Positions 30,528-32,177 of a stretch of 42,173 nucleotides of DNA are shown piece by piece (position 1 is the first letter of the stretch; every line of letters begins with the position of its first letter). The position numbers and the translations under genes were made by a program. This stretch comes from an uncultured Pseudomonadota bacterium (GTDB lineage Bacteria; Pseudomonadota; Gammaproteobacteria; Burkholderiales; CAIKXV01), in the NCBI GenBank assembly GCA_903831455.1, contig CAIKXV010000199.1, positions 1 through 42,173 of the forward strand, written 5' to 3'. The notes beneath the pieces are model-generated. The model saw only the letters and a program-made list of their open reading frames with translations. It made no database searches and was not told where the DNA came from.

Positions 30528-32177
30528 TCAGCGGGTGCGACCCGGGTAGGGTGGCAGTCGATCCACGCTGGAGCCCGGTGGCAGTCGTGCAAGGCTCGCG
30601 GGCGCGAACTCCGCGAACGGGCCGTCGGCCCAGGTCACCCGCCCGCCCGCCACCGTCAGCCGCGAGGCCTGGCGGGCCGGCGAGGCGACGAACGGATCGT
30701 GGTCCAGGATCGCAAAGTCGGCCGGTCGACCCGGCGCCAGCGCCCCGGCCACCCCCTCGGCGTCGAGCGCCCAGGCGTTTCCAGCGGCCACCCTCGCCAG
30801 CGCGGCCAGCCTTGCCTCGCGCAGCCGGTCCGCATCGCCGCCCTGCAGTGTCGGGGCGAGCCAGTCGACCATGCGCCAGGGGTCGAGTCCCGCGCGACGG
30901 CTGCCGCCCCCGCCCAGGCCGATCGGGACGCCGTGTTCGACCAGCCGATCGACCAGGCCCGGCGCGGCATCCCCAGGTAACCGGACCGGGCTGAGACAGA
31001 CCCCGCCTCCGAGCCGACGCAGCGCGTTCATCGCGGTCGTGTCCGGCTCCCGGGCGATATCGACCACCCAGCGCAGGCGATCGATCGACTGGCGTTCACG
31101 CAGGCGGTCGACGGCCAGCAGCACCCCGTCGAGGGCCTGCGCATCGGCGGCTTCGATCCGCCAGGCCCAGCGGGCACGGGCCAACGCGAGCAGTGCCGAG
31201 TCGATGGCGCCGGCTTCGGTCGCGCGGATCCGGGCCCCGAGCAGTTGCAGCCACCGATCCCCCTGTCCGGCAAAGGGGACCGAACTCCACTGCGCGAGGT
31301 CGGCCGCCTCGCGACGGGCGTCGTTCGTCGCGAGGAAACAGGCGACCCGCACCGGCAGCCGCCCCGCGGCATTGAGACGCACCAGGCTCGCGTAATCATC
31401 CGGATAGGCCGCCTCGCCGATATCCACCAGCGTGGTCACGCCGAACCGCGCGTACTGCCGCCCCAGCCGCTCGACCGAGGCGTCGCGCTCGGCAGAGTCG
31501 CGTGCGGCTCCCAGCGCGTGCGCGTGCGCCGCCTGCGCGGCCATGCCCGACAGCGCCAGGCCCGCACCGGGATCCAGGCCAAGCCTGCGCGCGGCCGGCG
31601 GGTTGATCCGGCCCTGCCCCGGCGCGGTCACCACCAGCACCGGTCGTCCCCCGGCCGCGATATCGATCGCCCCGTCATCGAGCCCCGACAACCAGGCATC
31701 GACGCGAGGGCTCGCGCCCTCGACCACCACCCAGGCACCGGCGGGCAGGCCCGCGGCGTGCTCGCGCAGTCGGGCGAGCGCCACTGGGAGCGACCCCGCG
31801 CCATCCCAGCGCAGGGTCCGGGTGTAGGCGAGACCGGCCGAGAGCAGGTCCGCTTCGAGGTCGCACAGTCCGGGCACGAGCCACCGGCCCCCGGCATCGA
31901 TCACGCGCGCGCCGGCCGGCCTCAGCCCGAGCAGGGCTGCATCGCTGCCGAGCATCGAGATGCGCCCCGCCTCGACCGCGAGCGCGGTCGCGCCGTTGCC
32001 GGCCGGGTGCGCCGCGTGCACGCGGGCGTTCACCACGACCAGCGGACGACCCGGATCCCGCCCCGGCTGGCCGCGCAACGGCAGCGGTGCGGTCGCAGCG
32101 AGGCTCGCGGCGAGCTTGAGCCAGCGCCTGCGCGAGTCGCCGGACCTCACGGCCGATGCCGTTCGCCGCGCACGCAT
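30528..32177 (-). CDS. Tat-exported amidohydrolase-fold protein lacking the metal site (probable pseudoenzyme)
   Basis: A 549-residue protein of the amidohydrolase 3 (YtcJ-like) layout. The signal SRRRWLKLAAS is a good twin-arginine motif, so export of a folded protein is predicted. The fold is recognisable: VVVNARVHAAHPAGNGATALAVEAGRI, ARVIDAGGRWLVPGL, then the C-terminal NAWALDAEGVAGALAPGRPADFAILDHDPF. But the catalytic positions are replaced: IDSHAH reads D106-L-E108-A-D110, the barrel His-Ala-Gly-Asp motif reads IEAADAQAL, the Glu-His strand reads WVVDIA, and the Gly-Ser-Asp loop reads GLGGGGS. No metal site remains. It is 30 bases downstream of the CDGSH gene and in its operon. A binding or scaffold role is possible; decay is less likely because the frame is intact. 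Confidence 0.8.
   Translation of the reverse strand: MRARRTASAVRSGDSRRRWLKLAASLAATAPLPLRGQPGRDPGRPLVVVNARVHAAHPAGNGATALAVEAGRISMLGSDAALLGLRPAGARVIDAGGRWLVPGLCDLEADLLSAGLAYTRTLRWDGAGSLPVALARLREHAAGLPAGAWVVVEGASPRVDAWLSGLDDGAIDIAAGGRPVLVVTAPGQGRINPPAARRLGLDPGAGLALSGMAAQAAHAHALGAARDSAERDASVERLGRQYARFGVTTLVDIGEAAYPDDYASLVRLNAAGRLPVRVACFLATNDARREAADLAQWSSVPFAGQGDRWLQLLGARIRATEAGAIDSALLALARARWAWRIEAADAQALDGVLLAVDRLRERQSIDRLRWVVDIAREPDTTAMNALRRLGGGVCLSPVRLPGDAAPGLVDRLVEHGVPIGLGGGGSRRAGLDPWRMVDWLAPTLQGGDADRLREARLAALARVAAGNAWALDAEGVAGALAPGRPADFAILDHDPFVASPARQASRLTVAGGRVTWADGPFAEFAPASLARLPPGSSVDRLPPYPGRTR

Follow-up and report, generated by a model that had tools for sequence, protein, structure and literature searches.

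A putative Amidohydro_3 pseudoenzyme without its canonical metal ligands at a thioredoxin-DoxX locus of an uncultured Burkholderiales bacterium

Proteins of the amidohydrolase fold that lack a functional metal site are known in other subfamilies; examples are the CRMP/DRP proteins and the bacterial PyrC'. The DHO-like domain of a fungal CAD-like protein also belongs to another subfamily and is not known to have a Tat signal. Catalytic parents of the protein described here are found among the YtcJ-like Amidohydro_3 proteins, for example L063 of Pseudomonas donghuensis. They share its profile, fold and motif order, and in some cases a twin-arginine start, but they keep the complete set of metal ligands and the stretches that are missing here. 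The fungal DHO-like domain lacks the active site and keeps the homodimer form, and a structural role was proposed for it (PMC9863657); unlike the present protein, it sits in a large fusion. A precedent for export comes from P. aeruginosa, whose PF07969 protein PA2699, described as YtcJ-like, has been reported as a Tat substrate (PMC4899797). No ligand-free Amidohydro_3 protein was found among the open-access papers listed on inactive amidohydrolases and YtcJ (including PMC10754289 and PMC4899797).

We analyzed a stretch of 42,173 nucleotides (hereafter the window) from an uncultured bacterium of the Burkholderiales. A first-pass annotation, made from the letters, had placed a Tat-exported amidohydrolase fold stripped of every metal ligand at 30528‒32177, and had suggested gathering homologues, estimating selection and predicting the structure. 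The ORF list bears out these coordinates and adds the strand, which the annotation had not given: the gene runs on the minus strand from an ATG at 32177 to a stop at 30528‒30530 and encodes 549 amino acids. Residues 91‒515 match Amidohydro_3 (PF07969) with an E value of 9e-32, and the score of 111.6 bits against a curated cut-off of 29.7 places the protein within the profile; no NCBIfam model matched at its own cut-off. Automatic annotation based on Pfam would name this ORF an amidohydrolase, very likely misstating its chemistry. The gene and its altered sites are as follows.

30528‒32177, minus strand: pseudo-amidohydrolase (Amidohydro_3 fold), 549 aa (ORF, Pfam, predicted model and structure match)
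32115‒32135, minus strand: Tat-type motif SRRRWLK (residues 15‒21), then a weak hydrophobic stretch (residues 19‒34)
31848‒31856, minus strand: E108-A-D110 replacing the H-x-H metal motif (alignments)
31227‒31232, minus strand: R316-I317, at or next to the position of the lost bridging Glu (GAGE motif), with 19 residues absent after residue 319 (I317 in one alignment, gap in the other)
31152‒31154, minus strand: E342 replacing a metal-ligand His (alignments)
31056‒31058, minus strand: I374 replacing a metal-ligand His (DH motif; alignments)
30906‒30908, minus strand: G424 replacing the catalytic Asp, with Gly in the G008 fragment too (alignments)

The canonical ligand set of catalytic Amidohydro_3 enzymes (H-x-H, Glu, His, His and Asp) is absent from the pseudo-amidohydrolase, in which the six sites H, H, E, H, H and D are occupied by E108, D110, a gap (or I317), E342, I374 and G424. 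HHEHHD was present in all 37 aligned parent-type rows, and none of these rows had lost all ligands, whereas the pseudo-amidohydrolase reads ED-EIG. The 37 rows stem from 27 loci of the order sample, nine of the phylum sample and L063, some of which also stand in the wider alignment, and they represent 35 different genes (L180 repeats L089, and L182 repeats L086). Among the 42 other rows of the wider alignment, where L081 repeats L005, all five His/Asp columns are filled in 38; 36 of these read H, H, H, H, D; the third His alone is missing from the other two, the distant rows L032 and L066. The reading of E108-A-D110 in the first-pass annotation is thus confirmed, with the codons GAA and GAC aligned at the H-x-H of the family, and so is its claim that the later His, Glu-His and Asp motifs are replaced. 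Since the five His/Asp codons require at least eight nucleotide changes (2+1+2+2+1), sequencing error is an unlikely cause of the ligand loss.

Conserved catalytic motifs are gone from the protein while its relatives keep them, which is the motif pattern of a pseudoenzyme. Judged from these alignments, the loss of canonical binuclear-metal chemistry is well supported: a member of a common family has indeed lost its whole canonical metal site. With no metal-holding residues left, the protein has very likely gone from enzyme to non-enzyme. A second pair of His residues, H218-A-H220 (31518‒31526, minus strand), lies between two shortened stretches of the protein; because the predicted model puts the pair in a helix, it is probably not a relocated metal motif.

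The remainder of the sequence has changed unevenly. Across 212 columns that are near-invariant in 23 parent-type rows, the pseudo-amidohydrolase keeps 79, changes 104 and has gaps in 29. Gly (20/34), Trp (6/7) and Leu (12/24) are the near-invariant residues kept best, and the polar residues His (0/4), Glu (1/14), Gln (0/8) and Thr (2/13) are mostly gone, suggesting that the fold was kept and the polar pocket lost. The structure prediction bears out the amidohydrolase fold. An AlphaFold2 model built on an alignment of nine rows has a mean pLDDT of 70.4 and a pTM of 0.71, with residues 1‒61 below 50, and the former ligand sites lie on or next to its strands 104‒106, 338‒343, 370‒374 and 419‒421. 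The nearest solved structures to the model are 3igh (Z 28.6, rmsd 3.3 over 414 aligned residues) and 3icj (Z 28.1, rmsd 3.1 over 396 aligned residues). Both are Pyrococcus proteins that superpose on the predicted fold, but they were deposited as metal-dependent hydrolases and are only 16‒18% identical to it; phmmer of PDB sequences found no relative at E 0.001.

Three of the four former His sites are now acidic, and D106 and D373 are retained. These residues could be taken as a rebuilt pocket, in which E108, D110 and E342 would form a carboxylate site that binds a different cation or a basic ligand and might support new chemistry. Since neither the bridging Glu nor the catalytic Asp remains, we regard such a pocket as quite unlikely.

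The first-pass annotation had called the frame full length and had argued from its intact length for selection on a non-catalytic role. The frame is indeed open over 549 codons, but the description as full length needs correcting, because 47 residues in four stretches are missing relative to the parent protein L063 (654 aa from its first Met): 12, 6, 19 and 10 residues are absent after positions 209, 222, 319 and 397, respectively. The absence of stops is also weak evidence, since the DNA is GC-rich and a 594-codon frame (31245‒33029) is likewise open on the strand opposite to the pseudo-amidohydrolase gene. The argument from length is accordingly not borne out: stretches have been deleted, and open frames are cheap in the GC-rich DNA of the window.

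The search for homologues yielded a small clade of three members. The pseudo-amidohydrolase type is carried by three of the 11 genomes of the genus, namely the source genome, G008 and G004, all of them draft genomes that are 83‒98% complete. Several of the eight non-carriers are 84‒89% complete, and the region between thioredoxin and DoxX is readable in seven of the eight. Both other copies are fragments (139 aa in G008 and 113 aa in G004) cut by contig ends inside the gene. In a tree of 132 columns covering the C-terminal part only, from which L007_3280, L028_3 and L081 had been removed, the three sequences form one clade with 100/100 support; the tip branch of the pseudo-amidohydrolase is long (2.28 vs 0.11 and 0.21 for the two fragments), which calls for a long-branch warning. 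Among the ligand sites, only that of Asp424 is readable in the fragments, and in G008 alone, as the G004 fragment covers none. The G008 fragment begins with GGARRGGFNP, and its first Gly falls on the Asp ligand site in a gap-free alignment, as G424 does. The loss of at least the Asp ligand is therefore common to two species.

A search of the G004 and G008 genomes for the missing N-terminal parts of their genes found no match of the pseudo-amidohydrolase type; the best matches in G004 were other homologues. The source genome also contains other homologues, and the protein might assemble as an inactive partner with a catalytic one, as the inactive fungal DHO-like domain keeps its dihydroorotase-type dimer (PMC9863657). 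However, these homologues are only about 25‒30% identical to the pseudo-amidohydrolase over their best frames, and none of those placed in the tree groups with the parent branch. We consider this kind of pairing very unlikely.

Wider searches brought up the same two fragments. A scan of the GTDB 220 contigs with the single protein confirmed no relative, and a scan with a three-row alignment gave eight loci, two of which are clade members on contigs G008:C230 and G004:C223; the two contigs are titled Betaproteobacteria bacterium RE-15aug16-108 and Burkholderiales bacterium ES-bin-91. No relative was found in two scans of viral contigs. Partial samples of 399 genomes of the order, 369 of the class and 398 of the phylum were searched, with the best few candidates per genome scored, and there were no further clade members among the aligned matches. 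In these samples, matches below the E cut-offs, 12 of 41 order-sample places and 40 of 50 phylum-sample places were judged from a table row, some of those genes being aligned otherwise.

Selection was estimated on the last quarter of the protein, where the orthologue fragments overlap it. NG86 dN/dS was 0.35 between the pseudo-amidohydrolase and G008 (125 codons), 0.45 against G004 (103 codons; YN00 0.24) and 0.22 between the G008 and G004 fragments (107 codons), with dS above 1 in each comparison. In a custom-made three-taxon codon model, a neutral branch for the pseudo-amidohydrolase was rejected (2dlnL 15.7, nominal p 8e-5), with synonymous change saturated and branch lengths at their bound in each of the three fits. 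A two-ratio model did not fit significantly better than a one-ratio model (p 0.36). The pseudo-amidohydrolase has 22 private changes vs 11 and 9 in its orthologues, and the neighboring DoxX protein has 25 vs 13 and 16; given this similar excess, its speed looks largely lineage- or locus-wide. The proposed dN/dS estimate thus shows signs of constraint, although only in the last quarter and at saturated dS, and we see modest evidence that the gene is under constraint.

These results bear on whether the gene is simply decaying, that is, an unused homologue that lost its ligands and stretches under relaxed selection and whose frame stays open owing to the scarcity of stops in DNA of such GC content. 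The long tip branch, the deleted stretches, the presence in just three of 11 genomes and the chance open frames nearby are all compatible with decay. On the other hand, the rejected neutral branch (with its saturation caveats), dN/dS below 0.5 and the equal rate excess in DoxX speak against it, as do the selective retention of fold residues over polar ones and the Gly already present at the Asp site of G008. Third-position GC also resembles that of the neighbors, at 0.855 in the pseudo-amidohydrolase gene vs 0.849‒0.897 in the thioredoxin, CDGSH and DoxX genes. Taken together, decay seems unlikely.

The N-terminus carries a Tat-type motif. The Tat consensus is (S/T)RRxFLK, and the SRRRWLK noted in the first-pass annotation, confirmed here at residues 15‒21, fits it with Trp for Phe. 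The hydrophobic part that follows is weak, with hydropathy peaking at only 1.31 over 12 residues. Twin-arginine starts were recognized by eye in four parent frames (L005, L050, L052 and L063), and many other parent frames have none. From this motif, the pseudo-amidohydrolase is probably exported by Tat.

The gene lies in a row of genes of one direction, with the following neighbors.

32902‒33282, minus strand: thioredoxin (WCGPC; Pfam), near DoxX also in seven of the eight non-carriers
32208‒32918, minus strand: CDGSH-Fer4_19-CDGSH protein, 30 bp upstream of the pseudo-amidohydrolase gene (Pfam), in one of the 11 genus genomes
29943‒30389, minus strand: DoxX membrane protein, 138 bp downstream of the pseudo-amidohydrolase gene (Pfam), in all 11 genus genomes
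33533‒36871, plus strand: GGDEF/EAL-type gene, divergent flank marker of the locus (named by eye)

The thioredoxin, CDGSH, pseudo-amidohydrolase and DoxX genes all run on the minus strand, and the first two overlap. An operon with thioredoxin and the double-CDGSH protein had been proposed in the first-pass annotation as a link to redox or iron-sulfur biology. The thioredoxin-DoxX setting is seen genus-wide, but the CDGSH link finds no support, as the CDGSH gene was found in one of the 11 genomes, the source genome. In each of the three carriers, at most two genes away from the pseudo-amidohydrolase gene lies DoxX; as DoxX occurs in all 11 genomes of the genus, this nearness may be due to chance. 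The G004 locus reads pseudo-amidohydrolase, VTT-rhodanese, Dps and DoxX, and the G008 locus pseudo-amidohydrolase, Dps and DoxX, both contigs ending before any thioredoxin gene. In seven of the eight non-carriers, the outer neighbors of thioredoxin and DoxX are largely the same as well; for the eighth (G006), the contig fetched begins just before DoxX.

Within the genus, the slot between thioredoxin and DoxX (29943‒33282 in the window; L166‒L172) holds a pirin gene, almost nothing, or CDGSH and the pseudo-amidohydrolase. A pirin-type ORF fills it in six of the seven readable non-carriers, and almost nothing in G010; Pfam was run on two of the six, both matching Pirin, and the others were assigned by likeness of their translations. 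The pirin-type ORF of G009 appears truncated at its start, and the G003 slot also contains a reverse ORF that by eye resembles a LysR regulator. Such variable contents between conserved neighbors indicate that the pseudo-amidohydrolase gene is an accessory part of the thioredoxin-DoxX locus. From gene order alone, a redox link of the protein may be inferred.

Remnants of the pseudo-amidohydrolase gene in the non-carrier slots were considered and rejected, as no amidohydrolase query matched better than E 0.086 in the seven slots. The idea that parent-type genes are widely linked to redox genes was likewise rejected: among 36 parent-type or related loci, searched over unequal flanks and with the two clade loci set aside, CDGSH was found twice, VTT-rhodanese twice, DoxX once and thioredoxin once, counts that come without a base rate.

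We consider it slightly favored, on the sequence evidence as a whole, that the protein is a pseudo-amidohydrolase which is exported and has a binding or scaffolding role at a thiol-redox locus, and that it does not perform metal-dependent hydrolysis. A folded, exported barrel that binds a ligand or a partner appears to be the most economical reading. Its ancestor would have come from the GLNYNLELRW-bearing branch of YtcJ/Amidohydro_3 proteins, in which some members have twin-arginine signals, and the ancestral gene would have entered the variable slot between the thioredoxin and DoxX genes. The binuclear metal site may then have been lost, at least its Asp before the split from G008, and stretches around the active site also in the source lineage; this order of events is itself an inference. 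The folded barrel, probably exported by Tat, might bind a small molecule or a partner protein, or serve as a scaffold beside DoxX and thiol-redox partners. A more specific version, in which the exported protein has a rebuilt acidic pocket (E108, D110 and E342) and has come to function in an envelope redox locus with thioredoxin and DoxX, in the place that pirin takes in sister species, seems doubtful to us. If functional, the protein would be a pseudoenzyme with a clear catalytic parent and a likely export signal, and the locus would offer a natural replacement series, in which the slot holds pirin, nothing or the pseudo-amidohydrolase in sister species.

Several minor observations concern neighboring genes. 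VTT(DedA)-rhodanese fusions lie near amidohydrolase genes in three families, at 440‒1423 (plus strand) of L037 (G004), 10961‒11863 (minus strand) of L136 (G602) and 4091‒5122 (minus strand) of L039 (G017). An in-frame TGA (1244‒1246 of L037; also in G602) takes the exact position of the second Cys in the CxCPNEAS rhodanese motif of G017, and the TGA-bearing proteins are possibly selenocysteine rhodaneses fused to a membrane domain. The nearest model for the G004 protein is NCBIfam rhodanese_LYCAU, below its cut-off, and a selenoprotein rhodanese had no match in the open-access literature. The VTT-rhodanese gene of G009 (L169, 7854‒8381, minus strand) lacks query residues 53‒171, most of the membrane part, and immediately follows the pirin-type frame. 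In the window itself, a TctC-like gene at about 25116‒26131 (minus strand) seems to be split across two frames, and its counterpart in L037 (3892‒5013) is one frame; the split seems to be either an assembly error or a real break.
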